Assembly (NCBI GenBank): GCA_003416985.1
Contig: QVIN01000003.1
Span: forward strand, 496,001 to 560,000
DNA length: 64,000 nt
Origin: Duganella sp. BJB480
Lineage (GTDB): Bacteria > Pseudomonadota > Gammaproteobacteria > Burkholderiales > Burkholderiaceae_D
Direction: 5' to 3'
A program made the position numbers and the translations under genes. The notes below the pieces were generated by a model that was not told where the DNA came from, made no database searches, and saw only the letters and a program-made list of their open reading frames with translations. Below, piece after piece: positions 177 to 15,396 of the stretch (positions within the stretch are counted from its first letter, which is position 1; each line of letters begins with the position of its first letter).

Positions 177-1538
177 CTATTCCTCCGTCATCGACGTCTT
201 GGCGCGGTCGAAGACCGGCTTCAGCAAGTAACTCATCATCGAACGCTCGCCAGTCTTGACGAACATTTCCACCGGCATGCCGGAGACGATGGCGAGGTGC
301 TCCTTCTGGATCAACTTGCTTCCTTCGGCCGACACCCGGGCGCGCACCTTGTAGTACGCCGCGCCGCTGCGCTCATCCACAGTCCTGTCCGCTGCCACCT
401 GTATCACTTCGCCAGGGATATGCGGCGTCTTGTTGGCATTGAAGGCCGAGAAGATCAGCTCCACCTTCAGGCCCGGATGAACCTTATCGATCAGGTTGAC
501 CGGCAATTGGCCTTCCACCACCAGGGCGTCGGCGGTCGGCACGATCTCCATCATGCGCGAGCCGGCGGCAACGATACCGCCACGGGTGAACACGTTCGAT
601 CCCACCACGACGCCGTCGACCGGCGACTTCACGTCCACGCTGGCGACGTCGAATTTCTGCGCATCCAGGCGGCCTTGCAGCGCCTCGGCTTCCTTCTGGG
701 TGTCGGCAAGCTGGGTACGCACTTCCTTCTGGTAGTCCTGGTTACGCTGCTGCTTGCGCAGCGTCAGTTCCATGATCTGGCGCTGTGCACGGCCGATGTT
801 GCCGACATCCTCGGCGATCGCGCCATTGACCTGCGAATAAGTGCGCTCCACTTCCAGCAGGCGGTTGCGAGCGAGGTAGCCTTCCTTGGCCAGGTCGCGC
901 GAATTATCGAGCTGCTCCTTCAGCATGGCCAGCTGGTCCTTCTTGTTGTCGCGCGACTGTTGCAAGCCGGAGATCTGCGACCTCAGACCTTCGATGTTTT
1001 CATCGGCACCACCGAGTTCGCTATGCAGCGAGCCCTGACGCGACGCCAACAGTTGGTTTTGCAGCGTCATCGCTTCGATCACCGCCGGCTCGTCCTTGTA
1101 GGGCAACAACGAGGCCGGCAGATTGATCGACTTCTGTCCACTCAACTCGGCCTGCAAACGCGCCTCGGTCGCGCGTGCGCTCACATACTGCACGCGAGTG
1201 ATATCCATTGCGGACTTCACCTGCACGTTGTTCATGCGGACCAGCACCTGACCGGCTTTGACCACGTCGCCGTCCTTCACCAGGATGTCCTTGACGATCC
1301 CGTTCTGCAAATACTGGATGGCCTGGCGATTCGATTCCTTGGCAACCGTGGCCTGCATTGGCACGCCTTTGTCCAGCGGAGCAAAGATCGCCCACACCAG
1401 AAAGCCCAGCACGCCGAACAGGACGATGGCCCAGCCCACCCGAGCGTAGGCGCCGGCATCCGTATTGACCGTCAACGGCTCGACGTCGTGGCTGATGACT
1501 TCGGTCGCTGGCTCTTGCTTCTTAACGATATTTACCAT
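177..1538 (-). CDS. HlyD-family type I secretion periplasmic adaptor
   Basis: This 453-residue membrane-fusion protein should bridge the inner-membrane ATPase and the TolC channel. After a short cytoplasmic tail there is one membrane helix (about residues 34-53), then a split lipoyl/barrel-sandwich half containing IVKDILVKDGDVVKAGQVLV (about 80-100). A long Gln/Glu/Arg-rich coiled coil follows (about 120-290), then the second half with the typical DVKSPVDGVVVG (about 300) and a beta-barrel domain reaching MPVEMFVKTGERS near the end. Length and order fit PrtE/HlyD proteins. The start ATG lies two bases after the upstream ATPase stop, so the genes are translated as one operon with a common promoter upstream of the ATPase. 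Confidence 0.95.
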   Translation of the reverse strand: MVNIVKKQEPATEVISHDVEPLTVNTDAGAYARVGWAIVLFGVLGFLVWAIFAPLDKGVPMQATVAKESNRQAIQYLQNGIVKDILVKDGDVVKAGQVLVRMNNVQVKSAMDITRVQYVSARATEARLQAELSGQKSINLPASLLPYKDEPAVIEAMTLQNQLLASRQGSLHSELGGADENIEGLRSQISGLQQSRDNKKDQLAMLKEQLDNSRDLAKEGYLARNRLLEVERTYSQVNGAIAEDVGNIGRAQRQIMELTLRKQQRNQDYQKEVRTQLADTQKEAEALQGRLDAQKFDVASVDVKSPVDGVVVGSNVFTRGGIVAAGSRMMEIVPTADALVVEGQLPVNLIDKVHPGLKVELIFSAFNANKTPHIPGEVIQVAADRTVDERSGAAYYKVRARVSAEGSKLIQKEHLAIVSGMPVEMFVKTGERSMMSYLLKPVFDRAKTSMTEE

Positions 1539-1540
1539 GA

Positions 1541-3415
1541 TTATTCCTGTTCCGTCGGCGCTGGATTGTTCACATCGCCGAGATTTTCCTGTGCCTGCTG
1601 TGCACGCTGCTGCAACATCTGCTGGGCGGCCTGTTGTGCAGCCGCCTCCTGGGCTGCCTGTTGCTGGGCCGCCTGCTGCTGGGCTGCCTGTTGCTGAGCG
1701 GCCTGTTGCTGGGCTAGCGCTTGTTTTTGGTTGGCCTCGGTCAAGGCAGCCAATACCTGGTTGGTCTCGCCAAACAGGGCGACCGAACCATCGCGCAGCA
1801 GCAGCAATTTGGTGGTAACAGCGATCGCGCTGGTGCGGTGAGTGATCAGCACAATCGTCTTGCCGCGTGACCGCAGATCGCCGATGGCCTGCACCAGCGC
1901 GGCTTCGCCGACATCATCCAGATTGGAATTGGGCTCGTCCAGCACCAGCACCGCCGGGTCACCGTACATAGCGCGTGCCAGGCCGATGCGCTGACGCTGC
2001 CCGCCCGACAGGCCGGCGCCGCCATCACCCAACATGGTGTCATAGCCATTAGGGAAATGCAGGATCATATCGTGCACGCCGGCGCGCTTGGCCGCCAGTA
2101 CCACCTTATCCGAATCCACCTCGCCGAAGCGCGCGATATTTTCACTGACCGTACCACCGAACAATTCGATGTCCTGCGGCAGATAGCCGAGACTCGGTCC
2201 CAATTCAGCCTTGTTCCACTGGTAGATATCAGCGCCGTCCAGACGGACCTTGCCGACAGCGGACGGCCACACGCCGACCAGCAAGCGCGCCAGCGTCGAC
2301 TTACCCGAACCGCTGGGGCCGATCACGCCCAGCACATCGCCCGATTGCACTGCGAAGCTGACGCCCTTCAGCACTGCGACCTGGCTACCCGGCGGCGCGG
2401 CGGTCACGCCTTCCACCGTCAGATTGCCTTGCGGCTTAGGCAGCTCCATACCGGCGGGGCGCGCAGGATTATTCTGCAGCAGGTTGCTCAAGCGTTCATA
2501 CGCGCTGCGGGTGTTGGCGAACGATTTCCATACGCCGATCACTTGCTGCACTGGCGCCAGCGCCCTGCCAACCAGAATCGAGGCGGCGATCATCATACCG
2601 GGGGTGATTTTATTTTCCAGGACCAGCAAGGCGCCAAAGCCCAGCACCAGCGATTGCAGTGCGACCTGGACAAATTTGGTTATCGCGCCGACCAGGCCGG
2701 CCTTTTCGCTGGCCTCCGCCTGCAGATGCAGGAATTTTCCATGCAGCTTGAACCAACGGCCCATCAGGTTCGGCAGCATGCCCATCGACTCGATCACCTC
2801 GGCATTGCGCAAATTATTGGTCGCAAGGGTGCTCGATGCGATCGACATGGCGTTGGCGTCAGCCAGCGGCTTGTGGGAAACGCGCTCGTTGATATAAGCC
2901 AGCAGTACAAGCACCACGGTGCCGCCCAAGGCGAACAGACCCAGCGAGGGTTCGAACACAAAGATCACGATCAGGTAGACCGGGAACCAAGGCGCGTCAA
3001 AAAATGCGAACAAGGCGTTACCGGTCAGGAATTGACGCACGTTGGTCAAGTCCTGCAGCGCCTGGCCGGCGTTGGCGCCGGCGCGTTTCAAATTCTGTTC
3101 GAACGCCGCCGTGTAGACGCGCTTATTGAGCTGCATGTCGAAACGCGCGCCCACCCGTACCAGCACAAAGCTGCGTATCAGTTCCAGCGCGGCCATCATC
3201 AGGTAACCACCCAGCATCATCAGCGTCAACATGAGCAGCGTGAGCTCGTTGCGGCTGGCCAGCACGCGATCATAGACCTGCAGCATATAGATGGAGGGAA
3301 CCAGCATCAGCAAGTTGCTGATGGCGCTGAACGTTCCGACGGTGACGAAGGTCTTTTTGAACGTGAGCAGAACCTGTCCAATTTCGTTCTTAGGATTGAA
3401 TAATTTGTTTTTCAT
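1541..3415 (-). CDS. Type I secretion ABC transporter/permease, PrtD type
   Basis: A 624-residue fused permease-ATPase that should power export of unfolded C-terminal-signal substrates. The N-terminal half has about six membrane helices (residues 20-300). The nucleotide-binding domain shows Walker [10 protein letters not shown] (near 364), signature [14 protein letters not shown] (near 468) and Walker [14 protein letters not shown] (near 492). No N-terminal C39 peptidase or C39-like domain is present, as in PrtD/AprD rather than HlyB. The start was placed at the ATG at 3415 (MKNKLFNPK); an in-frame ATG five codons upstream is less likely. The last about 60 residues form an unusual Ala/Gln repeat tail. 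The gene leads an operon with hlyD and tolC, behind a CRP-like palindrome. Confidence 0.95.
1650..1712 (-). repeat. 15-bp tandem repeats encoding AAQQQ units in the transporter tail
   Basis: About four near-identical 15-bp units encode successive AAQQQ pentads. They continue into more degenerate Ala/Gln codons down to about 1590. The repeat lies at the C-terminal end of the secretion ATPase, beyond the folded nucleotide-binding domain. Copy number could vary by slippage. Confidence 0.8.
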
Positions 3416-3534
3416 AATATGCGTGGGCAATACAAAGGCGGAGCAGCGGGTTCGTCATCCGACGGGCGTATCCCCGAAGGAGGTAACGAATGACTTTTCC
3501 TGCAAGAAACAGCCTAGATTTGAGTAGACGAGAG
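3416..3534 (-). promoter_or_regulatory. Leader of the secretion operon with alternative pairings
   Basis: About 110-145 nt of untranslated leader separate the inferred promoter from the ATPase start. It contains GTCATTCGT and, about 27 bases later, ATGACGAA. GTCAT can pair with ATGAC, or TTCGT with ACGAA, but the two pairings exclude each other. No known riboswitch consensus was recognised. The function is unknown. Confidence 0.3.
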
Positions 3535-3575
3535 ATTATCGCCTAAAATCGACGGAAAATGTGATGCTCATCACA
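3535..3575 (-). promoter_or_regulatory. CRP-type palindrome and promoter of the type I secretion operon
   Basis: The sequence TGTGATGCTCATCACA (3560-3575) is an exact TGTGA-N6-TCACA site and is also symmetric through most of its core. It lies 145 bases upstream of the ATPase start. On the minus strand a GATAAT hexamer (3540-3535) follows, placing the palindrome over the -35 position, roughly the class II CRP geometry (centre near -40). The same consensus recurs upstream of the surface-protein gene and of fecR. The -10 is a visual match only. Confidence 0.7.
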
Positions 3576-3684
3576 AATTTTACACTTCAGTGCAAAATAA
3601 AGACGCATCAATGGTGCTGGCCACCCCGATTATTGTATTCAGCGCAGTTGCTACGCCATATGGCATTGTTGCACGCAAATGTAA

Positions 3685-3710
3685 AAAAGCCAGACCGAAG
3701 TCTGGCTTTT
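3685..3710 (-). terminator. Rho-independent terminator of the surface-protein gene
   Basis: On the minus strand an AAGCCAGAC stem, short TTCG loop and GTCTGGCTT stem are followed by a run of T residues (3690-3685). It stands about 50 bases after the stop codon of the DUF4214/RTX gene and should isolate that highly expressed transcript from the downstream secretion operon. Confidence 0.85.
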
Positions 3711-3717
3711 CAGGAAA

Positions 3718-3747
3718 CATCGGAGCGCGCTGTTCTGCGCTCCGATG
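3718..3747 (-). terminator. Second hairpin directly after the surface-protein gene
   Basis: A perfect 11-bp inverted repeat (CATCGGAGCGC, 8-base loop, GCGCTCCGATG) begins about 14 bases after the stop codon and precedes the T-tract terminator. It has no T-run of its own. It could protect the 3' end of the mRNA or assist termination. Confidence 0.6.
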
Positions 3748-3760
3748 TAACAACCGGCTA

Positions 3761-6700
3761 TTAAGCCAGGGTCAGGACGTTCGACGAGATCGCGGTCGTC
3801 GAAGCTGCGTGGTAGCCGACCAGAACGATCGACTCGAACACGCCAGCACCGTGGTCGTAGGTCACAACGGTGTCAGCACCAGCTGCGCCGTAGGCGAAGA
3901 TGCCGTTTGCTGCATCGTAGGTACCAGCAGCGAACACCACGTGACCAGCAACGCCAGCCAGGTTGGTTGCAGCCAGGTCAGCAGCAGCGACGGTCAGACC
4001 AGCCAGCGCGGTCAGATCGATCTTGGTGCCTGCAACAGCGCCTTTGATGACGTCGAAGGTAGCGGTCAGTTCGCTGGTCGCGGTGTTCAGCGTAGCGTTG
4101 ACACCCGAAGCGCCCGAAGCTTGCACGATGGTCGAGGTGTTGCCGGTGATGGTGATGGTATCAGCACCTGCACCGCCGGTGATGACGTCAGCACCGCCGC
4201 CGCCAACGATCACGTCTTTGCCCGAACCGCCGTTGATGTGGTCAGCACCGGTACCACCGGTCAGGGTGCTAGCAACAGTACCGCTACCGGTGATGGTGTT
4301 GGCACCTTTGACTTCAGTGATGGTTACACCTTTCAGCGATGCCGAAGCGTCGATCACGTCACCGCCGTTTGCCGAACCTTTGAAGGTTGCAACTACGGTC
4401 GACGAAGCAGTCAGAATGCCGGTGGTCAGCGAAACACCGGTGGTAGCAGCGCCGGAACCAGCAACGTTCAGGCCCGAAGCGTCGAACGAGGTCAGAGCGG
4501 TCGAACCAGCGGTCAGCAGGGTGTGCGCAGTGCCCGATACGGTGATCGCCTTAACATCGCTACCAGCGATGGTCAGGGAATCGGTAACGGTGCCAGCTGG
4601 AGTGGTCGAGCTGTCGGTGGTCGTGACTTTGATCGTTTCGACGTTGGCGGCGTTGATAGTGCCGAACGAGGTCGTAGCAGCATTGGACAATGCAACGTTC
4701 AGCACGTCAGCGGTACCAGCCAGTGCGCCGGTGATGCCAGCGGTGTAAGCAGTACCGGTGCCGGTCAGTGCCAGGGTCGCGCCCGAGGTCAGGCCGTTCA
4801 CGGTCAGGTTGGTTGCGCCAGCGGCGGATACGTAGTTGTAGCCACCCAGTACGTTCGCATCGATGGTTTCCGAAACTGCGCCGGTGATGGTCAGATGGGT
4901 GAAGCCGGTCACAGCCGCAGCCAGAGCATTGCTGCCCGATGCGGTTACGGCATCGCCAGCAGCCATTTGCAGGGTGTTGGTGCCTGCGCCGCCGGTAGCG
5001 CCGCCGCCGGTGCCCAGGGTCGAAACGATAACGGTGTCGTTGCCGCCACCGAAGGTCACGGCTTTGGTCGCGAGAGCGGCCATGGTCACAACGTTGTTAC
5101 CAGCGGTGAACGAACCGGTTTCAGCAGCGTTCAGCGACACGGTCACGCCCGAGGTGTTGCTCGAGGTGAAGGCGGTGGCAGCAGCCACGGTCGAACCGGT
5201 CAGGTCCAGAGCCTTGTCGCCGGTGACGGCGATGGTTTTCACAGCAGCGCCGGTCACGTTCAGAGCCGAATCAGCACCGGTAGCGGCGATGTTCAGGGTC
5301 TTCACTTTAGCATCGACCAGAGCACCAGCCATACCATTGACGGTCACGCCCAGGGTCGTAGCAGTGGCGGTAGCCGAGTTGTCGGTTACGGTCACGGTGC
5401 CGGTACCGTTGGTCAGCGACAGGGTAGCCAGCGCGTTGGTGTTAACCGAAGCGTTGACGAAGTTGTTCAGGGTAACGGAAGCGATCGTGTTAGCCTTGGT
5501 GCTGTCGGTGTTAGCCGAGTTCAGGTCGGTGATGGTGATGGCGCCATCGATGATACCGCCAACTGCGGTAACAGCGGCAGTACCTGCGGTGCCTTGAGCA
5601 TTCGCCACGGTGACGGAAGCAGCCTGCGCACCGGTTGCGGCCAGATCGGTAACATTGCTGTTAGCGGTCGTGCTGGTGAAGGTTACGACGTGACCAGCCG
5701 TTGCTGCGCTGGTGGTCCAGCCAGTCAGGGCACCCGAGTAGGTACCCAGGGCTGCAGCTGCACCGGTGATGGCGCCGTTAGCCAAACTGGCGAACACGGT
5801 GTCCAGTTGAGCTTGGCTCAATGCACCAGCGCCTGCGGTGAAGGTCAGGCCGCCCAGGGTGACGATGCCACCAGCAGCCAGGCCGCCGGCGCCGGAGGTA
5901 ACGGTTGCGGTTTCGGTCGCAGCAGGGACGCCAGTCACGCCTTGTACAGCGGCTACAGCAGCGGTCTGGTTGACGGTTACAGCGGTCGTGGCCGCGCCAC
6001 CATTCACAACAATGTTGCCACCGGTTGCAGCGTAACCTGCAGTGGTATTCGAGGTAGCAGCAGCGATATTCTGGGTGACGTTCACGGTGGTGCCGCCAGC
6101 AACGGTAACGGTGCTGCCGGTAACGTTTGCCGCGCCGGTGTTAGCATCGGTCACAACAGCGGTGATCGCGCCAGCGGTGGTCGAGCTGCCAACGTTGACT
6201 GCGCCACCGGTGGTTACGCCGGTGAAGGTTGCGCTGATCGACGAGCCGCCGGAGATCGACGAGGTCAGGCCAGCAACGGATGCATTGTTCACGACGATAG
6301 CAGTGGTAGCAGCTGCCTTGATGGTGTCAGCGCCGACCGAAGCGGAAACCGCCAGGTTGGTTACGCCGGCAACAGCGGAGGTGTCCACAGTAACGGCTTC
6401 CAGGCTCTGCACATTCAGGTTCTGAATGTTTTTGATGGTTACGCCACTCAGTGGGGTGACGGTGCCGCCGGTGGCGAAGTCGTTGATGTTCAGGGTGTTG
6501 GTGCCGGTGCCACCGTCGATCGAATCGAAAGCGGTCAGGGTTGGCGCGGTGCCACCCAGGGTTGCCGAGTAAACGTCGTTGGCGGCGGTGCCGACCAAGG
6601 TGTCAACGCCGGTGGTCAGCGTGGCGTTCACAACTACTGGAACGATCAGGCCGGCGATTGCCTGGGTCACATTGGCGTGGAACGCGGTCAGGTCGGTGGT

Positions 6701-7267
6701 CGCGGTAACTTGTGCCAGCAGGCCGTGGATAGCAGCGGCAGCAGCGTCGCCCGAGAACGAGATGATCTTAGGGATGGTGTCCAGCGAATTGGTGAAGTCG
6801 GTAGCGACAGCATTGACCTTGGCAACCAGGGCGGTATCCAGCAGGCCTTGTGGCGAGGTGTTGGTGCCGTTCACGGCGCCTTCGGTGATGGCCAGGGAGG
6901 CGTTTTCACGGCTCACGGCACCGGTTTCGATGGCGTTGACCCAGAAATTGGCGCCAGCGTCAGCGTCGCGGTGGAATACGTTGTTGTAGACGTCGTTGAC
7001 GAACTTCAGGACCGACAGGTGATCGTTGCCCGGAGGAGCGACTTTGTTGGCGAAGCTGCCAACCAGCAGGCCAACGGCCGAAGTTGGGTGAGCTTGCGAG
7101 TAGGCGCTCAGGGCAGGAACGGTGGTCAGCGCGGTGTCGGTGCCAGCATTTGGGTCAGCAGCCAGCAGTTGGGCCGTGAAGTTGGCCAGGCCGGTTGGGT
7201 CTGCAGGACGGCCAAAGTAGGAAATGTACAGTTGCTGTACGACTTGAGTGTAATCGATTGCCGCCAT
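3761..7267 (-). CDS. DUF4214/RTX surface-layer-like protein, probable type I secretion substrate
   Basis: An 1168-residue protein rich in Ala, Thr, Gly and Val, with no cysteine seen. Residues 1-140 resemble DUF4214 (VVQQLYISYFGRPADPTGL at the start). The middle is a long series of Thr/Ala/Val beta-rich repeats like those of S-layer and large exported proteins. Near residues 1030-1075 there are RTX-type calcium motifs (GGTGADHINGGSGKDVI and similar), and the end is hydrophobic (ISSNVLTLA), as in type I secretion signals. No N-terminal signal peptide is seen, as expected for this route. The matching exporter is encoded just downstream on the same strand. A strong 5' leader hairpin, an AAGGA ribosome site and two 3' hairpins suggest high expression. 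S-layer function is inferred. Confidence 0.85.
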   Translation of the reverse strand: MAAIDYTQVVQQLYISYFGRPADPTGLANFTAQLLAADPNAGTDTALTTVPALSAYSQAHPTSAVGLLVGSFANKVAPPGNDHLSVLKFVNDVYNNVFHRDADAGANFWVNAIETGAVSRENASLAITEGAVNGTNTSPQGLLDTALVAKVNAVATDFTNSLDTIPKIISFSGDAAAAAIHGLLAQVTATTDLTAFHANVTQAIAGLIVPVVVNATLTTGVDTLVGTAANDVYSATLGGTAPTLTAFDSIDGGTGTNTLNINDFATGGTVTPLSGVTIKNIQNLNVQSLEAVTVDTSAVAGVTNLAVSASVGADTIKAAATTAIVVNNASVAGLTSSISGGSSISATFTGVTTGGAVNVGSSTTAGAITAVVTDANTGAANVTGSTVTVAGGTTVNVTQNIAAATSNTTAGYAATGGNIVVNGGAATTAVTVNQTAAVAAVQGVTGVPAATETATVTSGAGGLAAGGIVTLGGLTFTAGAGALSQAQLDTVFASLANGAITGAAAALGTYSGALTGWTTSAATAGHVVTFTSTTANSNVTDLAATGAQAASVTVANAQGTAGTAAVTAVGGIIDGAITITDLNSANTDSTKANTIASVTLNNFVNASVNTNALATLSLTNGTGTVTVTDNSATATATTLGVTVNGMAGALVDAKVKTLNIAATGADSALNVTGAAVKTIAVTGDKALDLTGSTVAAATAFTSSNTSGVTVSLNAAETGSFTAGNNVVTMAALATKAVTFGGGNDTVIVSTLGTGGGATGGAGTNTLQMAAGDAVTASGSNALAAAVTGFTHLTITGAVSETIDANVLGGYNYVSAAGATNLTVNGLTSGATLALTGTGTAYTAGITGALAGTADVLNVALSNAATTSFGTINAANVETIKVTTTDSSTTPAGTVTDSLTIAGSDVKAITVSGTAHTLLTAGSTALTSFDASGLNVAGSGAATTGVSLTTGILTASSTVVATFKGSANGGDVIDASASLKGVTITEVKGANTITGSGTVASTLTGGTGADHINGGSGKDVIVGGGGADVITGGAGADTITITGNTSTIVQASGASGVNATLNTATSELTATFDVIKGAVAGTKIDLTALAGLTVAAADLAATNLAGVAGHVVFAAGTYDAANGIFAYGAAGADTVVTYDHGAGVFESIVLVGYHAASTTAISSNVLTLA

Positions 7268-7311
7268 GATGATAGTTCCTTAAAAAGTTTGGTTTAAACC
7301 AGAAATTCTGC

Positions 7312-7346
7312 GGCTCAGAGCATACAGCGCCGTATCACACTGAGCC
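7312..7346 (-). promoter_or_regulatory. 5' leader stem-loop of the surface-protein mRNA
   Basis: On the minus strand GGCTCAG and CTGAGCC pair, with an inner ATAC/GTAT stem. The hairpin starts about ten bases after the inferred transcription start (near 7357) and sits well ahead of the AAGGA ribosome site (7281-7277). A further palindrome, GGTTTAAACC, lies at 7291-7300. A 5'-terminal hairpin of this kind stabilises abundant outer-membrane mRNAs such as ompA; the same role is inferred here. Confidence 0.5.
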
Positions 7347-7363
7347 CTTTTGCAGAAGGTGGG

Positions 7364-7409
7364 AGTATATTGCCATACCAAGGGACAATTGTTGTGATGG
7401 GCATCACAA
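7364..7409 (-). promoter_or_regulatory. CRP-type palindrome and promoter of the surface-protein gene
   Basis: TGTGATGGGCATCACA (7393-7408) is an exact TGTGA-N6-TCACA site, extended by one symmetric base on each side. A TATACT -10 lies on the minus strand at 7369-7364, so the palindrome is centred near -42 to -44, close to the class II activator position. The gene start is about 100 bases further on. No good -35 is visible, as expected for an activator-dependent promoter. Confidence 0.7.
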
Positions 7410-7561
7410 AACAAATGTTTTTCTTCCGACTTTGCAACTAGTTGTAAATTATTTGCGCGTTATTTATGCAAGATCGATAAATATACACAAATAATCACCT
7501 TACTATTGCGCTATCAGCCCCATCCGGTCGCCTTTATATCATAAGCGCCCGGTATACACAA

Positions 7562-7597
7562 AAATGGGTAATGCTGCCTTTGCAACATTACCCATTT
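7562..7597 (-). terminator. Terminator after the fecR-domain gene
   Basis: A perfect 12-bp stem (AAATGGGTAATG / CATTACCCATTT) with a 12-base loop lies about 32 bases after the stop of the FecR-domain gene, followed on the minus strand by further T residues. Confidence 0.8.
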
Positions 7598-7629
7598 CTG
7601 TCATCCAACTACTTGAAAACCGAGACCGC

Positions 7630-9012
7630 TCAACGCCCCCACTTGGTAGCGCCGTTCACCGTGACGAAGTTGGACTTGTATTGGAATAAATACGCAGCTT
7701 CCTCCACATTGGCCCCGCCCAGATATCCCTTGATACGGTTATCGGTAATTTGATTTGGATTGACCAACTCACCGTGCTGACTAATATTGCCCGCCACACT
7801 GAACGGCACGCGCATATTGTCACCGACCACATCCAAACTGGTCTTGAACGTCCGCTTGGCGAAATCCACATCCAATTGCGCATTCTCGACTGCCGCCTGA
7901 ACCCAGTTTCCACCTGTGCGCTGAAGGACCGCATCGCTGCCGGTCAGCACAAACGAGGCGGTACCTTCGCGCGGCGCCACGTAGGCGGTCGATTTCAGGC
8001 GGGCGATGTTATATGGCCCCAGCACCAACTCCAGGTCATACGTGCCATTTTTCATCTTGGCTTGAGTCGCGGCATCCATGCTGCCGCCAGCGATCGCCTC
8101 GTAGCGGCCCCAGATCACCTCCTCCGGGCCGCGCGTCACCACGGGCGGCAAGACCGGCGGCGTGACCGGCTTGACCGGCACAACGGTTTCCGGCTGCTGA
8201 TCCACCAGCGGCGGCACCGATGCCCCACCACCCGGCGTGACATTGTTCTGCGTGATCTGCTTGCTGTTGTTCAGCACATTGTTGGACTTCTGCGCGTCGA
8301 GGTTGACGTCGGCGCCGGGACTGCTGCCCCCCACCTTGCCCACCGGCTCATCCGGACGCGCCGGCGCGCCCTGGTCGGCCGGCGACATCACCGGGCTGCG
8401 CAGCAGTTGCGGACTGGTCTGGCCGCGCTGCACCTGCAGCATCAGCCCGGCCTGGCCGGCGAACAGCTCGCGGCTGGCGCCGCCCTCGCAGGGGCCACCG
8501 CCTTCGGGGCCGCAACTGCCGGCGAAGCCGCTGACCACCACGCCGCCGGACATCACCGTCACGCGCGAGGTCTGCTGGTCGGTGTAGACCACGAAGTCGG
8601 TGCCGCGCACGCCGATCGCGGCGACCGGCGTGTTGAAGCGGAAGTTCTGCCGCGCCTGCTTGACGCCGGCGCCGGAAATGCTGCGCGCCACGCCCTGCAA
8701 CAACTCCAGCTTGACGCGGGTGTTGACCGGATTCTGCGCATCGATGTGGTAGGCCACGATGCGCGCCTTGCTGTTCGGGCGCAGCACGAGGAAACCCTGG
8801 TCGACGGTCTTGACATAGACATAGCCGTCGGCGCCGGTGGTCAATTCATCACCTTCCTGGACGGCGGCGTCGAGCGCGAGCGGGCGCGCGGCGACACTGA
8901 CCTGCCCAGTGACGAACACGACTTTCCCAGCCTCGGCGGCCTGGGCGGCGGATGCCAGCATCCCCAGCCCCAGCAACATCGCTGCATATATGGTGTGAAA
9001 TTGATTGCGCAT
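7630..9012 (-). CDS. Secreted FecR-domain protein with C-terminal barrel-like domain
   Basis: A 460-residue exported protein. A signal peptide (about 1-25, ending AAQA) is followed by a FecR domain (about 30-155, with FNTPVAAIGVRGTDFVVY). Next come a cysteine pair (SCGPEGGGPC), a Pro/Asn/Gln-rich linker (about 210-300) and a C-terminal domain (about 310-460) rich in alternating strands, with IKGYLGGANVEEAAYLF near the end. That last pattern resembles the C-terminal barrel of TbpB-like surface proteins (family pattern G-x-F-x-G-P-x-A-x-E-x-x-G). There is no membrane anchor or lipobox, so this is not a canonical FecR anti-sigma factor, and no sigma factor partner lies nearby. It is divergent from the cyclase/Slam-like/Crp operon and has its own CRP-type promoter. 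Confidence 0.8.
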   Translation of the reverse strand: MRNQFHTIYAAMLLGLGMLASAAQAAEAGKVVFVTGQVSVAARPLALDAAVQEGDELTTGADGYVYVKTVDQGFLVLRPNSKARIVAYHIDAQNPVNTRVKLELLQGVARSISGAGVKQARQNFRFNTPVAAIGVRGTDFVVYTDQQTSRVTVMSGGVVVSGFAGSCGPEGGGPCEGGASRELFAGQAGLMLQVQRGQTSPQLLRSPVMSPADQGAPARPDEPVGKVGGSSPGADVNLDAQKSNNVLNNSKQITQNNVTPGGGASVPPLVDQQPETVVPVKPVTPPVLPPVVTRGPEEVIWGRYEAIAGGSMDAATQAKMKNGTYDLELVLGPYNIARLKSTAYVAPREGTASFVLTGSDAVLQRTGGNWVQAAVENAQLDVDFAKRTFKTSLDVVGDNMRVPFSVAGNISQHGELVNPNQITDNRIKGYLGGANVEEAAYLFQYKSNFVTVNGATKWGR

Positions 9013-9034
9013 AATAAGTTTCTCCCTCAGCCTA

Positions 9035-9077
9035 CATTGTCCGCTATCGTCCCCGAAAGTATGTGACCCGGGTCACA
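9035..9077 (-). promoter_or_regulatory. CRP-type palindrome between fecR-domain gene and cyclase operon
   Basis: TGTGACCCGGGTCACA (9062-9077) is a fully symmetric TGTGA-N6-TCACA site, extended to 18 bases by flanking A/T. Toward fecR, GACAAT (9040-9035, minus) is spaced exactly as a -10 for a class II site centred near -41.5, with GAGGGAG ahead of the ATG. Toward the cyclase, TACAAT (9092-9097, plus) is a possible -10 but at a less typical distance, so control of that side is uncertain. Confidence 0.75.
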
Positions 9078-9259
9078 TTCTTTCAATTGGATACAATTGA
9101 CCAACCGCCGCCGCAACACGGCCGACAAAGCCGACGAAAGAGATGTAAAACAGTCAATTTTGCTCTATTCCATCCCGGCACAAGCCGTTATACTGGGCGA
9201 TTATTTTACCTCAGCAACTATCGGCCCGCCGGCCGCCAGCCACCAGACCACCGCTCATC

Positions 9260-11080
9260 TTGCGCATCCCGTTCACCGCCACCGCCGTCGCCCGCAGCTG
9301 CATCGCCCTGGCCGCGCTGCTGATCACCGCCTGGGTCCAGTGGGACCAGGGCGGCGCCTCGCAGCGGCTCGACAACTGGCTGCGCGACCGCTACACGCTG
9401 ATGCGCGCCAGCGCCCAGCCGGAGCGGCGCGTGCTGCTGGTGGACATCGACGAGACCAGCCTGGAACGCTATCCGTGGCCGTGGCCGCGCACCCGCATGG
9501 CGGAGATGGTGGAGGCGCTGCTGGCCGACGGCGCCCGCGGCGTGGCGCTCGACATCCTGCAGGAGAAGGCGGCCGACGCCGCCGGCGACGCCCGCATGAC
9601 CATGCTGTCGCAGCACGCGCCGCTGGTCATGGCCCAGCTGTTCGATTTCAGCGAGCGCGACGATCCGCTGCACAGCGGCGTGCTGTCCGGCGGCGAACCC
9701 GGCGCCGTGCCGGGCGCGGTGCCGGCCTACGGCTACATCGCCAACCACGCCGGGCTGGCGCAGGCCGCCCATTTCGGCAACATCGGCGTGGCCCCCGACG
9801 GCGACGGCGTGCTGCGCCGGGTGCCGATGTACACCAGCTTCAACGGCCGCAGCTATCCGACGCTGTCGCGCGCGCTGTTCGACTGCTGCGCCGCCGGCCG
9901 GCCGCTGCCGCCCACCGCCACCGGCTGGGTGCGCGTCCCCTACACCCGCGCCTGGCCCGCCTACGACGTGGCCAAGGCCGCCGACCTGCTGGACCAGCGC
10001 GTGCCGCCCGAGTTCATCCAGGGCCGGCTGGTGCTGATCGGCTCGTCCGCGCTGAGCATCGGCGACCGCGTGGCCACGCCGCTGGGCGCGCTCAGCGCCG
10101 GGCTGATGGTGCACGCCTCCATGCTGACCGGCCTCTTGGACCGCCAGGCCGGCCTGGCGCCGGCGCCCTGGCCCGGCAGCCTGATCGCGCTGCTGTTCTG
10201 CCTGGCCGTGACGGCGCTGTCGATCTACACGCTGCCGCGCCGCACCGCCGCCGTCAACATCGCGCTGCTGGCGGCCGACTCCGCGCTGTGGCTGCCGCTG
10301 GCCTACCTGGTCGCCCCGCACGACGCCGGCTTCGGCCCGTCCGGGCCGCTGCTGTCCATCCTGTTCCTGCTGCTGGTGGCCGTGCCCTTCCACTGGCAGC
10401 AGGCGCAGACCCGCTCGCGCCGCCTGCTCGACACGCTGCGCCAGTATGTGGCAGGCGACGTGGTCGACGAGCTGTTGCGCAGCAACCTGGAGGACCCGCT
10501 GGCCCCGCGCCAGCTGGAGGTGACCACGCTGATCGCCGACATGGAGGGCTACACCACCCACGTCGAGTCGCTGCCGGTCGAGGAGGCCGCGCGCCTGACC
10601 ACCGAGTTCCTCGATTGCCTGACGCGCCCAGTGCAGGCCATGCGCGGCACCCTCGACAAGTACACCGGCGACGGCATGGTGGCGTTCTGGGGCGCGCCGC
10701 TGCCCAATCCGGACCACGCCAACCTGGCGCTGGACGCGGCGCGCGCCATGCTGCAGGCGGTGCGCCACCTGAACACGCGCCGCGCCGCCGCCGGCCAGCC
10801 GCCGCTGCGGGTACGCATCGGCATCGAAAGCGGGCTGGCGATGGCGGGCGACTTTGGCACGGCCATGCGCAGCATCTATACTGCGGTAGGCGACAGCGTC
10901 AACACGGCCTCGCGGCTGGAGCAGGCGGCGCGCGACTACCCGTACGACATCATCATCGGCGAAGGAACGGTGAGCCGCGCGAGCCGCCACCGTTTCCGCC
11001 AACTAGGCCAGCGCACGTTGCGCGGCAAGGAGCACCCGATTAATCTGTACACCCTCGAGGACGCGCCATGCGCGCCGTAA
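9260..11080 (+). CDS. CHASE2-domain class III adenylate/guanylate cyclase
   Basis: A 606-residue membrane sensor. One N-terminal membrane helix is followed by a periplasmic CHASE2 domain (about 30-300, with VLLVDIDETSLERYPWPWPR and LVLIGSSALSIGDRVATPLG). Three closely spaced helices (about 308-380) and a cytosolic class III cyclase domain (about 415-600) follow. Catalytic features are present: metal-binding Asp in LIADMEGYTTH, Lys and second Asp in DKYTGDGMVAFWGAP, and Asn/Arg in GDSVNTASRLE, so the enzyme should be active. Adenylate rather than guanylate specificity is inferred from these residues and from the Crp-family gene in the same operon. The frame opens at TTG (9260); no ATG or GTG lies earlier in frame, and the first membrane helix requires this start. 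The stop overlaps the next gene by 13 bases. Confidence 0.9.
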   Translation: MRIPFTATAVARSCIALAALLITAWVQWDQGGASQRLDNWLRDRYTLMRASAQPERRVLLVDIDETSLERYPWPWPRTRMAEMVEALLADGARGVALDILQEKAADAAGDARMTMLSQHAPLVMAQLFDFSERDDPLHSGVLSGGEPGAVPGAVPAYGYIANHAGLAQAAHFGNIGVAPDGDGVLRRVPMYTSFNGRSYPTLSRALFDCCAAGRPLPPTATGWVRVPYTRAWPAYDVAKAADLLDQRVPPEFIQGRLVLIGSSALSIGDRVATPLGALSAGLMVHASMLTGLLDRQAGLAPAPWPGSLIALLFCLAVTALSIYTLPRRTAAVNIALLAADSALWLPLAYLVAPHDAGFGPSGPLLSILFLLLVAVPFHWQQAQTRSRRLLDTLRQYVAGDVVDELLRSNLEDPLAPRQLEVTTLIADMEGYTTHVESLPVEEAARLTTEFLDCLTRPVQAMRGTLDKYTGDGMVAFWGAPLPNPDHANLALDAARAMLQAVRHLNTRRAAAGQPPLRVRIGIESGLAMAGDFGTAMRSIYTAVGDSVNTASRLEQAARDYPYDIIIGEGTVSRASRHRFRQLGQRTLRGKEHPINLYTLEDAPCAP

Positions 11081-12375
11081 GCCCGTCGCTGCTGCTGGCG
11101 CTGCTGCTGACGCTGCCGTGGTGCGGCGCGTCGGCCGCCGGCCAGGCGCAGCAGCACGACATCGTGGTGGCGGCCGCCGCCGACGGCGGCGCCAACGCCG
11201 AGCCGGCGCCGTACGCGCCCATCCAGCAGGAAGAGCTGTACCTGGAGGCGATGCGGGCGCTGGCGGCCGACCAGCCCGAACGCGCCAACGCCCTGCTGCT
11301 GCGCTTCCTGGAGGGCGAACCGCGCCACGCCGGCGCCTGGCTGGACCTGGCGTTCAGCCAGTGCACGCTGGGCCACGGCGCCGAGGCCGAGCGCCTGTTC
11401 CAGGAGATCGAGCACCGCTTCAAGCCGCCGCCGGCGATCCAGGAGCTGATCGACCAGCACCGCGCGCGCGGCTGCGACACCAAGCCGTCGTGGCGGCCGC
11501 TGTGGGCGCTGTCGCTGGGCCGCGGCTACGACAACAACATCAACCAGGGCGCCAGCAGCAGCGAGTTCTCCACCGGCAGCGGCAGCACGCTGACGCAGTG
11601 GGAGCTGCCGGCCGACTACATGCCCAAGCCGGACCGCCAGACGACGGCCGGGGTCGACTATCTGCAGCAGCTCGACGAGACCGGCTCGCTGCTGATCGCC
11701 CAGTTGCGCGTGCGCCAGAACGACAATGTGCACGCGCAGGACTCGGCCTCGCTGCAGCTGGGCTACGAGCGCCCGTGGCAATGGGGCGCGTGGCGCGGCT
11801 ACGGCACGGCGGCCTTCAGCGTGCTGCAGCTGGAACACCAGTTGTACCAGCGCCAGGAGCAGGTGCAGCTGCGCGCGACGCCGCCGCTGGCCGTGCCGGA
11901 GAACCTGCAATGGTCGCTGCTGGCCAGCCTGAGCCACGTGCGCTATCCGACCCGCACCAAGTACGATTCCAACACGCTGGAGCTGGGCACCAGCCTGTAC
12001 TGGCGCGGCACGCAGCAGGTGTCGTTCTCGCTGAGCGGCCTGCTGGACAAGGGCCAGAACGGCCGCCTGGGCGGCGACCGCCACGGCTGGTACAGCGCGC
12101 TGCAGATGACCCAGCCGCTGCCGTACAAGAATCTCAAGGCGGAGCTGGGCTGGACGCGCCAGGTCTGGCAGAGCAGCGACGTGTACTCGCCGGAGATCAT
12201 CGACATCATCCGCCACCAGGACACGCGGCAGCTGCGCGCGGCCGTGGTGATGCCGATGGGGACGCACCAGAGCCTGCAGCTGGAATGGCGCGCGGTAAGA
12301 AATCAGGAAAACATCTCGCTGTTTCAATATAATAGCCATGCAATCCAGCTCAACTGGCGCTGGGACAATTTCTAA
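11068..12375 (+). CDS. Slam-like (DUF560-type) outer-membrane protein with TPR domain and beta-barrel
   Basis: A 435-residue exported protein: signal peptide (about 1-24), helical TPR-like region (about 45-135, with YLEAMRALAADQPERANALLLRFL), then about 280 residues of alternating strands typical of an outer-membrane barrel, starting LWALSLGRGYDNNINQGASSS and ending in WRWDNF with a terminal Phe. This order (TPR domain plus 14-strand barrel with a GYDxNIN start) is that of surface lipoprotein assembly modulators and type XI secretion outer-membrane proteins. Its start overlaps the cyclase and its end overlaps the Crp gene by 38 bases, so translation is coupled. A candidate client, the FecR/barrel protein, is encoded divergently. 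Other TPR-barrel families cannot be excluded from sequence alone. Confidence 0.75.
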   Translation: MRAVSPSLLLALLLTLPWCGASAAGQAQQHDIVVAAAADGGANAEPAPYAPIQQEELYLEAMRALAADQPERANALLLRFLEGEPRHAGAWLDLAFSQCTLGHGAEAERLFQEIEHRFKPPPAIQELIDQHRARGCDTKPSWRPLWALSLGRGYDNNINQGASSSEFSTGSGSTLTQWELPADYMPKPDRQTTAGVDYLQQLDETGSLLIAQLRVRQNDNVHAQDSASLQLGYERPWQWGAWRGYGTAAFSVLQLEHQLYQRQEQVQLRATPPLAVPENLQWSLLASLSHVRYPTRTKYDSNTLELGTSLYWRGTQQVSFSLSGLLDKGQNGRLGGDRHGWYSALQMTQPLPYKNLKAELGWTRQVWQSSDVYSPEIIDIIRHQDTRQLRAAVVMPMGTHQSLQLEWRAVRNQENISLFQYNSHAIQLNWRWDNF

Positions 12376-13207
12376 CACCGTATCCGATGATTTCACACCG
12401 CCCCGCCCTCACCGCCACCGCGGCGCCGTCCCCATGACGGCGCCCGACGAGCAAGCGCCCGCTGCGGCACCGCTGGATCCGGCCGCACCGCCGCTGGATC
12501 CGGTCGCGGCGGCGTTGGAGTCCGGCCAGCCGTACAGCATGCAGGTCCACCTGCGCAAGATTCCGCTGCTGGCCAACCTGACCGAAGAGGAAATGGCGAT
12601 GGTGCGCGCCGACCTGCGCATCCGCCAGTACGCCAAGCGCGAGGTGGTGCTGCAAAAGGGCGCCAACGGCGACAGCCTGCTGTTCCTGTTGCAGGGCCAG
12701 CTGCAGGTGGTCGACATCACCGAGGACGGCCGCGCGATCGGCCTGCGCATGCTGGCGCCGGGCGACTTCTTCGGCGAGATCGCCGTGATCAACGGCACCA
12801 TGCGCTCGGCCTCGGTCGTGGCGACCACGGCGGTGCTGGTGGCGCTGCTGCCGCGTAACACGGCGCTGCACCTGTTCTCGCACTCGCCGTCGGTGGCCAA
12901 CCAGATGCTGCGCTTCCTGGCCGCCAAGGTGCAGCGCGACTCGGAATTCCGCGCCCTGCTCAGCATCCACAACACGGCCAAGCGCATCTACAGCTTCCTC
13001 GAGCTGGTCAAGGAAAAGAAGGAAGGCGACGTCGAGGTGGTGGAGAACCTGCCGACCCACCAGGACATCGCCAACATGATCAACACCAGCCGCGAAACCG
13101 TCACCCGCACGCTGCTGGCGCTGGTCCAGCAGGGCATCGTCAAGAAGGGCACGCACCGCCTGATCATCGTCGATCCGCAGGCGCTGCAGAAACTGGCGCA
13201 GAGCTAG
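12338..13207 (+). CDS. Crp/Fnr-family transcription regulator with cAMP-type pocket
   Basis: A 289-residue regulator. After a Pro/Ala-rich extension of about 65 residues there is a cyclic-nucleotide-binding domain (about 70-190). Its phosphate cassette, FFGEIAVINGTMRSASV (near 144), keeps the Glu, Arg and Ser that contact cAMP in E. coli CRP. A dimer helix and a winged helix-turn-helix follow, with recognition helix TSRETVTRTL (near 250); the RETVxR pattern is the CRP type that reads TGTGA. No Fnr-type N-terminal cysteines are seen. The ATG at 12338 overlaps the upstream gene; an ATG at 12434 would remove most of the extension and is a real alternative. Co-transcription with the cyclase and three matching sites in the locus support a local cAMP circuit. 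Confidence 0.9.
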   Translation: MQSSSTGAGTISNTVSDDFTPPRPHRHRGAVPMTAPDEQAPAAAPLDPAAPPLDPVAAALESGQPYSMQVHLRKIPLLANLTEEEMAMVRADLRIRQYAKREVVLQKGANGDSLLFLLQGQLQVVDITEDGRAIGLRMLAPGDFFGEIAVINGTMRSASVVATTAVLVALLPRNTALHLFSHSPSVANQMLRFLAAKVQRDSEFRALLSIHNTAKRIYSFLELVKEKKEGDVEVVENLPTHQDIANMINTSRETVTRTLLALVQQGIVKKGTHRLIIVDPQALQKLAQS

Positions 13208-13353: not shown

Positions 13354-14154
13354 ATGATTTCGCGCGCGATGTTCAGCGGCCTGTGGCGCTATCGCGGCTT
13401 CGTGCTGGGCAGCGTGCAGCGCGAGTTCCAGTCGCGCTACCGCAACTCGCTGCTGGGCGCGGCATGGACCGTGCTCAACCCGCTGGCCATGATCGTGGTC
13501 TACACCGTCATCTTCTCGCAGGTCATGGGCAGCCGCCTGCAGGGCAGCACCGCCACCTTCGCCTACAGCATCTACCTGTGCGCCGGCGTGCTGACCTGGG
13601 GCCTGTTCGCCGAGATCACCGGGCGCAGCCAGTCGGTGTTCATCGACCACGCCAACCTGATCAAGAAACTCCAGTTCCCGCGCATCTGCCTGCCCATCAT
13701 CGTGGTGCTCAACGCGCTGGTCAACTTCGCCATCATCTTCGGCCTGTTCACCGCCTTCCTGGTGATCTCCGGCAGCTTCCCCGGCTGGGTCTACTTCGCG
13801 GTGTTCCCGGTGCTGCTGCTGCAGATTATCTTCGCCATCGGCCTGGGCATGGTGCTGGGCGTGCTCAATGTCTTCTTCCGCGACGTCGGCCAGTTCTTTT
13901 CCATCGTGCTGCAGTTCTGGTTCTGGTTCACGCCCATCGTCTACCCGGCCGCCACGCTGCCGGCGTCGGTGCGCGCGCTGCTGGTGTGGAACCCGATGGC
14001 GGCCGTGATCGGCGCCTACCAGCAGATCCTGGTCAGCGGCCAGGCGCCGCAGTGGGGCAGCCTGCTGCCGGTCGCCGTGGCCGGCCTGCTGTGCTGCGTG
14101 CTGGGCCTGCAGCTGTTCCGCAAGCGCGCCGGCGAGATGGTCGATGAACTGTAA
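13354..14154 (+). CDS. ABC-2 type polysaccharide export permease (Wzm-like)
   Basis: A 266-residue inner-membrane protein with about six hydrophobic helices and the ABC-2 pattern near the N-terminus (REFQSRYRNSLLGAAWTVLNP), as in Wzm/KpsM/TagG permeases. These export undecaprenyl-linked or lipid-linked glycans together with a Wzt ATPase, which is the next gene 21 bases downstream. It opens the plus-strand part of the glycan cluster behind an extended -10 element. Length and topology are normal for the family. Confidence 0.93.
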   Translation: MISRAMFSGLWRYRGFVLGSVQREFQSRYRNSLLGAAWTVLNPLAMIVVYTVIFSQVMGSRLQGSTATFAYSIYLCAGVLTWGLFAEITGRSQSVFIDHANLIKKLQFPRICLPIIVVLNALVNFAIIFGLFTAFLVISGSFPGWVYFAVFPVLLLQIIFAIGLGMVLGVLNVFFRDVGQFFSIVLQFWFWFTPIVYPAATLPASVRALLVWNPMAAVIGAYQQILVSGQAPQWGSLLPVAVAGLLCCVLGLQLFRKRAGEMVDEL

Positions 14155-14175
14155 GCGCCACACCGGGAGCACACC

Positions 14176-15396
14176 ATGGGCAGCATAAGCGTCAAACAAC
14201 TGGGCAAGGCCTACAAACAATACGGCAACCGCTGGAGCCGCCTGGCCGAGTGGGTGCTGCCGGCCATGGGCCCGCGCCACCGCCTCAAGTGGGTGATCCA
14301 GGACGTCAGCTTCCAGCTGGCGCCGGGCGAGGCGGTCGGCATCATCGGCATCAACGGCGCCGGCAAGAGCACGCTGCTCAAGCTGATCACCGGCACCGCC
14401 CAGCCCACCACCGGCAGCGTCCACATCACCGGCCGCGTGGCCGCGCTGCTGGAGCTGGGCATGGGCTTCCATCCCGAGTTCAGCGGCCGCCAGAACGCCT
14501 ACATGGCGGGCCAGCTGCTGGGCCTGACCGTCGAGGAGATCAGCGCGCTGATGCCGGAGATCGAGGCCTTCGCCGACATCGGCGACTACATCGACCAGCC
14601 GGTGCGCGTGTACTCGTCCGGCATGCAGATGCGGCTGGCCTTCAGCGTGGCCACGGTGCGCCGCCCGGACGTGCTGATCGTCGACGAGGCGCTGTCGGTG
14701 GGCGACGCGTACTTCCAGCACAAGAGCTTCGAGCGCATCCGCGAGTTCCGCAAGCTGGGCACCACGCTGCTGATCGTCAGCCACGACCGCGCCGCGATCC
14801 AGTCGATCTGCGACCGCGCGCTGCTGCTCGACCGCGGCCGCCTGGCCTTCCAGGGCCGGCCCGAGGAAGTGATGGACTACTACAACGCCCTGATCGCCGA
14901 GCGCGACGGCGTCAACGTCGAGCAGACCACCGCCGCCGACGGCCGCACCCAGACCAGCTCGGGCAACGGCAAGGCCACGGTCACCGCGATCAGCATCGAG
15001 AACGCCGACGGCGCGCCGCTGGAGGTGCTCAACGTCGGCGTGCCGGTCACGCTGCGCGTCAAGGTGAAGGTGCATGAGGACCTGCCGCGCCTGGTGCTGG
15101 GCTACATGATCAAGGACCGCCTGGGCCAGCAGATCTACGGCACCAACACCCACCACATGGAGCAGCCGCTGACCGGCCTGCGCGCCGGCGAGCAGATCGA
15201 GTACTGCTTCCGCTTCCCGCTCAACCTCGGCCCCGGCAGCTACTCGGTGACCACCGCGCTGACCAGCAACGAGACCCACCTGGCCGACAACTACGAGTGG
15301 CGCGACCTGGCGCTGCTGTTTATCGTCATGAACATGAACCGCAAAGAATTCGTCGGCACCAGCTGGCTGGAACCGGCGATCGAGATCGCCCGATGA
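14176..15396 (+). CDS. ABC polysaccharide export ATPase with C-terminal Wzt domain
   Basis: A 406-residue ATPase partner of the preceding permease. The N-terminal 245 residues hold Walker A GINGAGKST (near 57), signature VYSSGMQMRLAFS (near 145) and Walker B VLIVDEALSVGD (near 168). The C-terminal part (about 275-400) is a beta-rich Wzt_C-type carbohydrate-binding domain, which in O-antigen exporters recognises the modified non-reducing end of the finished chain. This implies that export here depends on a capped glycan. Its stop overlaps the next start as ATGA, and the next gene is a methyltransferase that could install that cap. Confidence 0.93.
   Translation: MGSISVKQLGKAYKQYGNRWSRLAEWVLPAMGPRHRLKWVIQDVSFQLAPGEAVGIIGINGAGKSTLLKLITGTAQPTTGSVHITGRVAALLELGMGFHPEFSGRQNAYMAGQLLGLTVEEISALMPEIEAFADIGDYIDQPVRVYSSGMQMRLAFSVATVRRPDVLIVDEALSVGDAYFQHKSFERIREFRKLGTTLLIVSHDRAAIQSICDRALLLDRGRLAFQGRPEEVMDYYNALIAERDGVNVEQTTAADGRTQTSSGNGKATVTAISIENADGAPLEVLNVGVPVTLRVKVKVHEDLPRLVLGYMIKDRLGQQIYGTNTHHMEQPLTGLRAGEQIEYCFRFPLNLGPGSYSVTTALTSNETHLADNYEWRDLALLFIVMNMNRKEFVGTSWLEPAIEIAR

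Follow-up and report, generated by a model that had tools for sequence, protein, structure and literature searches.

A probable dedicated cAMP regulon for surface-layer export in Duganella and its relatives

Regulators of the Crp type are as a rule taken to be global, and the locus described here raises the question of whether a Crp-type protein can instead be devoted to a few promoters in its own neighbourhood. The window, by which we mean the whole 64,000-nucleotide stretch of Duganella sp. BJB480 that was analysed (G000:C30:496001-560000, G000 being the source genome, with 36 contigs and 7,267,612 bases), encodes a CHASE2 adenylate cyclase, a Crp-type regulator, a type I exporter, an RsaA-like surface protein, a FecR-domain protein and an outer-membrane barrel protein, and it carries three exact copies of the palindrome TGTGA-N6-TCACA (sites A, B and C; Table 1). 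The original prediction, made from the letters of this stretch, held that cyclase, regulator and three target promoters form a self-contained, local system for sensing and export. Herein we conclude that the locus probably represents a dedicated cyclic AMP (cAMP) regulon for surface-layer (S-layer) export.

The three palindromes lie exactly where they had been reported, and the expectation that chance would hardly produce them was borne out: 0.06 exact matches are expected in the window, and none of 100 shuffles contained three or more. The original prediction had also proposed a genome-wide scan to see whether such sites cluster here or are general. They cluster, as the only exact matches in the source genome are sites A, B and C, all inside 5.5 kb, while a reversed control pattern had no exact match across the whole genome. 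When up to one mismatch was allowed, the genome held 33 palindrome matches versus 23 for the control, and thus only the exact sites are clearly above background. A chance origin was ruled out on the basis of the window shuffles, the genome-wide scan and the controls in related loci given below, and a general CRP regulon in the source genome was rejected because there are only three exact sites and little excess at one mismatch. An N-terminal DUF4214 motif was absent from the 12 examined of 30 one-mismatch places in the source genome, and two further DUF4214 genes (L202, G000:C32; L204, G000:C35) had no site with up to one mismatch in the stretches examined; one stretch at L202 differs from the palindrome at two positions.

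The conservation of the sites was assessed in related loci, for which contigs were scanned for the Crp gene and the best 80 of 134 relatives were taken (mostly Massilia, Duganella, Rugamonas, Pseudoduganella and Noviherbaspirillum; 1,483,313 bases in total). These loci contain 150 exact palindromes, with at least one in 72 of the 80, and no match to the reversed control; several of the eight loci that have no exact site are short contigs or hold the Crp gene apart from the other genes. In all 150 sites position 6 is a pyrimidine (C or T) and position 11 a purine (A or G), which gives the fuller form TGTGAY-N4-RTCACA (Y/R sites). Promoter regions were then counted, with gene position alone deciding which of them entered the denominator. 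The region before the exporter holds an exact site in 34 of 34 readable related loci, that after the fecR gene and before the surface-protein gene in 62 of 63, and that between the fecR and cyclase genes in 42 of 68, with one mismatch in 23 more, whereas two control patterns scanned alongside had no exact match in any of the three. Rather than keeping the genes without the palindromes, relatives with the circuit retain the sites at the same three promoters of the export block to which the original prediction had assigned them. In 77 of the 80 loci the cyclase, barrel and Crp genes are found together, and 72 also share their order and the divergent fecR gene.

The position of the sites relative to putative promoters is similarly constrained. 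In the window a -10-like hexamer follows each site, and with a start assumed 7 nt beyond it the sites would be centred at about -39.5 (A), -43.5 (B) and -40.5 (C), in agreement with the range of -40 to -44 proposed originally, these starts being predicted. For the related loci 148 of 153 sites were used (those dropped had no called fecR gene or an incomplete flank), and the best -10-like hexamer was found 19 nt after the site in 33 of 37 exporter promoters (mean 1.8 and maximum 6 in 200 rounds of shuffled downstream sequence), 22-23 nt after it in 58 of 70 surface-protein promoters (mean 8.3, maximum 16, 200 rounds), and 20 nt after it in 28 of 41 fecR promoters (mean 2.5, maximum 9, 200 rounds). 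A 21-nt gap corresponds to the classical class II position of -41.5, and the near-fixed distance between site and -10 box is, for predicted starts, as at class II CRP promoters. Because hairpins with T-rich ends follow the fecR-domain and surface-protein genes, sites A, B and C probably each face their own transcription unit; a simple consensus terminator scan listed neither hairpin. Autoregulation of the cyclase operon was considered and is not claimed here, as a -10-like TATACT near 9187, picked out by eye, would leave site C about 130 bases upstream. Five viral contigs from IMG/VR (L197-L201) likewise show a site and then GATAAT 19 nt later.

The candidate reader of these sites is the Crp-type regulator, which matches Pfam PF00027 (cNMP-binding) and PF13545 (Crp helix-turn-helix) above cut-off. 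Residue conservation was scored in the 79 Crp and 68 cyclase sequences within length limits, out of 81 loci including the window. In all 79 Crp sequences the phosphate-binding cassette is invariant at G146, E147, R156 and A158, with S or T at 157, and the recognition helix reads RETV(T/S)R (RETVTR in the window, and S for T in a single sequence). The cyclase residues D427, D471, K467, T541, N548 and R552, which we take to be the two metal-binding Asp, the ATP-type Lys/Thr pair, the Asn and the Arg of the active site, are invariant in 68 of 68 aligned sequences, and the protein aligns with the adenylate cyclase structure 1wc1. Both predicted components, a CHASE2 class III cyclase with intact catalytic residues and a Crp-family protein with a cAMP phosphate cassette and an RETVxR helix, were thus confirmed.

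Across 97 genomes of the family, with the Crp counted as present at E 1e-30 or better, 62 hold at least one exact palindrome and 25 hold the Crp. The palindrome is present in all 25 genomes with the Crp versus 37 of the 72 without it (Fisher 1.7e-6, not corrected for relatedness). A sample of 398 genomes from the phylum yielded the Crp (E 1e-38) in three genomes, which all belong to the window's family and include the source genome. In the 18 genomes with a strong Crp orthologue the exact palindromes number 57, of which 39, every one of the Y/R form, are no more than 20 kb from the Crp gene; of the 18 found elsewhere, 8 are Y/R sites. Two of these eight outlying Y/R sites stand on other contigs in front of genes for ABC exporters (L157, L159), two adjoin DUF4214 genes by Pfam (L154, L158; one of them between divergent frames), and two are found ahead of genes whose beta-propeller products start like lipoproteins (L152, L153). 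Of the remaining two, one is placed between divergent genes (L151), for an inositol monophosphatase and for a protein that has no Pfam match and, by eye, a PEP-CTERM-like end, and the other is inside a coding frame (L156).

Further palindromes were encountered in genomes of the family. The stretch G042:C77:84799-87813 holds six exact copies beginning TGTGACAG in about 3 kb, a Crp of the window's type was not detected in that genome, and the cluster looks like a repeat array or the cluster of another regulator. The palindrome TGTGAAACGTGTCACA (or its complement), which is not of the Y/R form, recurs outside the locus in four genomes (G011:C34:157348, G045:C2:165755, G052:C25:8797 and G075:C14:362536), possibly as part of a conserved coding stretch or as another site.

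The exporter site was also compared between genomes with and without the Crp. Orthologous exporters (at least 68% identity) occur in 28 of the 97 family genomes; G046 and G009 (contig edges) and G004 (46% identity) were left out of the test. Strong Crp orthologues accompany 17 exporters, and among the 16 with readable upstream regions 14 have an exact site (that of G003 placed by coordinates) and two a site with one mismatch, while all six exporters accompanied by a Crp of about 41% identity have an exact site, paired in four. The Crp was not detected for five exporters: G040, G070 and G090 have no site, G046 ends at the contig edge, and G065 has a site, so that three of the four readable exporters without a detected Crp are without a site. 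The G065 genome is 86% complete and encodes a more distant CHASE2 cyclase. In G070, judged from its plus-strand reading and from zero exact matches genome-wide, the best upstream stretch has two mismatches. G070, G090 and G046 gave no match to the window cyclase at E 1e-20, and G040 gave only a partial match at 33% identity. In G040, which belongs to the window's genus, the exporter stands beside Wzm/Wzt (L192, G040:C30:590001-608000), and the 18 kb around it contain neither a site nor any match to the FecR, cyclase, barrel, Crp or surface proteins, which could mean that G040 has lost the circuit or did not acquire it.

The paired exporter sites belong to four relatives with the Crp of about 41% identity (L142 and L143, from G012 and G053; L144, from G054; L145, from G068). 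Their two palindromes start 31 to 90 bases apart, which suggests paired binding.

The presumed targets include an exporter and a surface protein. The genes for the PrtD ABC protein, the HlyD-family protein and the TolC-type protein stand in a row, and the operon qualifies as a PrtD-class type I secretion system. Over two significant collinear stretches and a third weak one the surface protein is similar to Caulobacter RsaA, with its strong composition bias corrected by the program, and its reversed residues 561-950 gave no match to RsaA at E 10. Matches to RsaA were obtained for three of five tested cargo proteins of this type, the window's included, and through this similarity the surface-layer idea gains support.

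The FecR-domain and barrel proteins may be partners in export. Alignments comprised the window's sequence with those of the right length, namely 43 of 49 for the barrel protein and 43 of 61 for the FecR protein. In the structure model of the FecR protein the C-terminal barrel adopts a TbpB/fHbp/HphA-like fold and qualifies, by model, as a type XI cargo barrel; the predicted template modelling score (pTM) of the whole model is 0.51, and only separate domains were therefore used. Its N-terminal part gave matches to models of the leptospiral proteins LipL45 and Lsa33 (E 8.1e-9 and 2.9e-8, far below the cut-offs). The protein encoded between cyclase and Crp combines tetratricopeptide repeats (TPR) with a 14-strand barrel in its model, in keeping with the periplasmic TPR and 14-strand barrel of type XI (Slam) translocons. 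The TPR_Slam Pfam model matched three of 44 members weakly (best E 0.0013) and not the window's protein, and Slam structures were not among the fold matches listed. The TPR-barrel protein is possibly a Slam-like translocon on the strength of its model, and together with the FecR-barrel protein it would form a putative pair resembling those of type XI secretion.

Table 1 Coordinates of the features discussed; positions are those of the window, except for the TolC-type gene.
Feature	Position	Strand	Remarks
Site A, TGTGATGAGCATCACA	3560..3575	-	Exact TGTGA-N6-TCACA; upstream of exporter operon
Site B, TGTGATGCCCATCACA	7393..7408	-	Exact TGTGA-N6-TCACA; upstream of surface-protein gene
Site C, TGTGACCCGGGTCACA	9062..9077	-	Between fecR-domain and cyclase genes; class II position for fecR
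-10 box GATAAT, exporter promoter	3535..3540	-	19 nt after site A
-10 box TATACT, surface-protein promoter	7364..7369	-	23 nt after site B
-10 box GACAAT, fecR-domain gene promoter	9036..9041	-	20 nt after site C
CHASE2 class III adenylate cyclase	9260..11080	+	Pfam; TTG start in the list of open reading frames (ORFs), uncertain
TPR and 14-strand outer-membrane barrel protein	11068..12375	+	Between cyclase and Crp; overlaps cyclase gene by 13 bases
Crp-type regulator	12338..13207	+	Start uncertain: 12338, 12428 or 12434
FecR-domain protein, predicted surface cargo	7630..9012	-	Signal-peptide-like N-terminus, proline-rich linker, C-terminal TbpB/fHbp-like barrel
Surface protein, 1168 aa	3761..7267	-	N-terminal DUF4214, RsaA-like body, RTX repeat; Pfam; RsaA E 8.9e-33
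PrtD-type ABC exporter, type I secretion	1541..3430	-	TIGR01842 773.9 bits, cut-off 510.15; start codon uncertain
HlyD-family membrane fusion protein, type I secretion	177..1538	-	Pfam; TIGR01843 381.9 bits, cut-off 208.65
TolC-type gene	L140:14824-16173		Next ORF after HlyD, just outside the window; Pfam OEP 186.9 bits, cut-off 22
O-antigen-type ABC transporter genes	13354-15396		After Crp gene; Pfam
Hairpin with T-rich end, likely fecR-domain gene terminator	7555..7605	-	-30.5 kcal/mol, z -8.9
Hairpin with T-rich end, likely surface-protein gene terminator	3685..3730	-	-16.5 kcal/mol, z -2.5

From these components we infer a course of regulation in which the CHASE2 cyclase would read a periplasmic or surface signal and make cAMP, and the Crp, encoded two genes downstream, would bind cAMP and then TGTGAY-N4-RTCACA at the three class II promoters. 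It would thereby activate the PrtD/HlyD/TolC type I exporter, the RsaA-like DUF4214 protein, which is most likely the cargo of that exporter, and the FecR-domain/TbpB-like barrel protein, which the TPR-barrel protein would most likely move to the cell surface, where the FecR part may take part in sensing or influence it. We regard as doubtful a more elaborate form of surface signalling via cAMP, in which the translocon brings the FecR/TbpB-like protein out, the FecR part or its failed export is read by CHASE2, the cyclase drives the Crp, and the resulting feedback matches S-layer supply to the state of the surface.

How local such a system would be has to be weighed against several observations. 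Besides the window cyclase the source genome holds two more regions similar to it (E 7.7e-51 and 5.4e-33) and three more CHASE2 proteins, and because of these the term self-contained goes too far; cAMP, moreover, diffuses. The relative G001 has four more Y/R sites outside the locus (L151-L154), possibly an expanded regulon, and two of the five cargo proteins tested had no match to RsaA; the former weakens the case for a self-contained circuit, and the latter qualifies the support for the surface-layer idea. What stands of the original prediction is accordingly the local regulon, supported by the exclusivity of the sites, the conserved promoters, the co-occurrence with the Crp and the absence of the site from three of the four readable exporters without a detected Crp, whereas self-containment is unproven. 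In an alternative account, the local Crp does act on its three targets, but most of the cAMP is supplied by other cyclases; the regulon would then be local, the signal global and the CHASE2 cyclase one input among others. The additional cyclase-like regions and CHASE2 proteins are in keeping with such an arrangement, and in Sinorhizobium three cyclases feed one Clr (PMC5498481). We nevertheless hold it to be unlikely, given how consistently the cyclase, barrel and Crp genes stay together and in order beside the divergent fecR gene, and given that a full-length match to the window cyclase is likewise lacking in G040, G070, G090 and G046, four genomes without a detected Crp.

The identity of the regulator and the direction of control can be questioned in the same manner. 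The source genome encodes 13 proteins with a Crp-type helix-turn-helix above the family cut-off, and one of the others, a global CRP, might bind the sites while the local Crp has another role. Twelve of the 13, the window's included, were aligned, as two loci (L020, L023) resolved to one ORF, and the thirteenth was screened by motif only; the window's Crp is the only one of them found with the RETV.R helix and FGE..RSA. The original prediction had itself named another Crp as a possible explanation of the sites, but none with a matching helix was found, many sites rather than three would be expected for a global CRP, and the presence of the exporter site tracks this Crp gene across genomes, all of which makes such a substitution very improbable. 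That the Crp represses the three promoters, and that the circuit hence turns the surface layer off, strikes us as improbable too: a site centred near -40 could also block polymerase, and one sigma-70-like pair overlaps site C (9086-9058), but the conserved spacing is near that of class II activation with the site covering the -35 region, and no minus-strand -35/-10 pair was listed for sites A and B by the consensus scan. Least credible is the notion that the palindromes are RNA hairpins or inherited sequence without function rather than protein sites. Site C does also score as a plus-strand terminator-like hairpin, yet the sites precede the -10 boxes and hence would not be part of the target transcripts as predicted, their exact arms are kept at fixed positions although flanks and inner bases vary between loci, and three of the four readable exporters without a detected Crp have no site.

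Parts of the predicted regulon are familiar from other systems. The box TGTGA-N6-TCACA, an RE..R recognition helix, a phosphate-binding cassette and a class II site over the -35 region are all known from CRP of E. coli; the window's Crp and sites share the first three and, for predicted starts, would share the last. The E. coli regulon is global, whereas in our case there are three sites and no global regulon, and the regulator is not an orthologue by NCBIfam, since it scores 70.1 bits against the canonical CRP equivalog NF008732, below the cut-off of 266. The S-layer protein RsaA of Caulobacter leaves the cell through a type I exporter and is anchored by O-antigen, and the window likewise combines an RsaA-like protein and a PrtD-type exporter with O-antigen-type ABC transporter genes nearby. 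It differs in the DUF4214 N-terminus of the surface protein and in the predicted placing of this protein under a cAMP/Crp circuit, a form of control that to our knowledge has not been described for RsaA in Caulobacter. TbpB, LbpB, fHbp and HphA are cargo of Slam (type XI) translocons, and the locus parallels these systems in having a TPR and 14-strand barrel protein encoded together with a protein with a TbpB/fHbp/HphA-like C-terminal barrel, but its cargo candidate carries a FecR domain and its TPR_Slam matches are few and weak. In contrast to FecR/PupR cell-surface signalling, the FecR protein of the window starts with a signal-peptide-like segment and not with an anti-sigma region, and a cyclase would take the place of the sigma factor.

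The nearest described system that we found is the CyaD1/Clr/FecR cascade of Sinorhizobium meliloti, and the idea of such a module is thus known. There cyaD1 (SMc02176, with a CHASE2 region), clr (SMc02175), a FecR-domain gene (SMc02177) and SMc02178 have consecutive locus tags, the neighbourhood of SMc02177 being read from its tag. Binding of Clr to the SMc02178 promoter depends on cAMP and takes place at a box with the palindrome TGTT-N8-AACA, relaxed to HGTYHCNNNNGRWACA (PMC5498481). The window resembles this module in bringing together genes for a CHASE2 cyclase, a Crp-type regulator and a FecR-domain protein. An outer-membrane barrel, NsrA, is also known in the Clr pathway. The window's sites differ from the Clr box in that TGTGAY-N4-RTCACA has G at position 4 and not T or C. 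The Sinorhizobium module further differs by its three cyclases and a wider regulon whose outputs include surface polysaccharide, and neither an S-layer exporter nor a TbpB-like barrel is described in the parts of the source consulted (PMC5498481). A limited literature search, by which novelty in print is weakly tested, returned no such regulator for S-layer-like export in Oxalobacteraceae-type bacteria and nothing joining CHASE2, cAMP and type I secretion, or S-layer, cAMP receptor protein, adenylate cyclase and type I secretion. As far as sequence comparison can tell, the predicted module is different from the known ones in its DNA box, its confined regulon, and its S-layer and barrel outputs.

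Taken together, the comparisons point to a real regulon that is conserved and unusually tight. The Crp-type protein described here appears to serve mainly one purpose, its sites being kept at the same three promoters across dozens of species. The locus would also place a cyclase, and not a sigma factor, in connection with a FecR-type signalling domain and a Slam-like export pair. For Oxalobacteraceae-type bacteria, it offers a concrete candidate circuit for the control of S-layer-like export.

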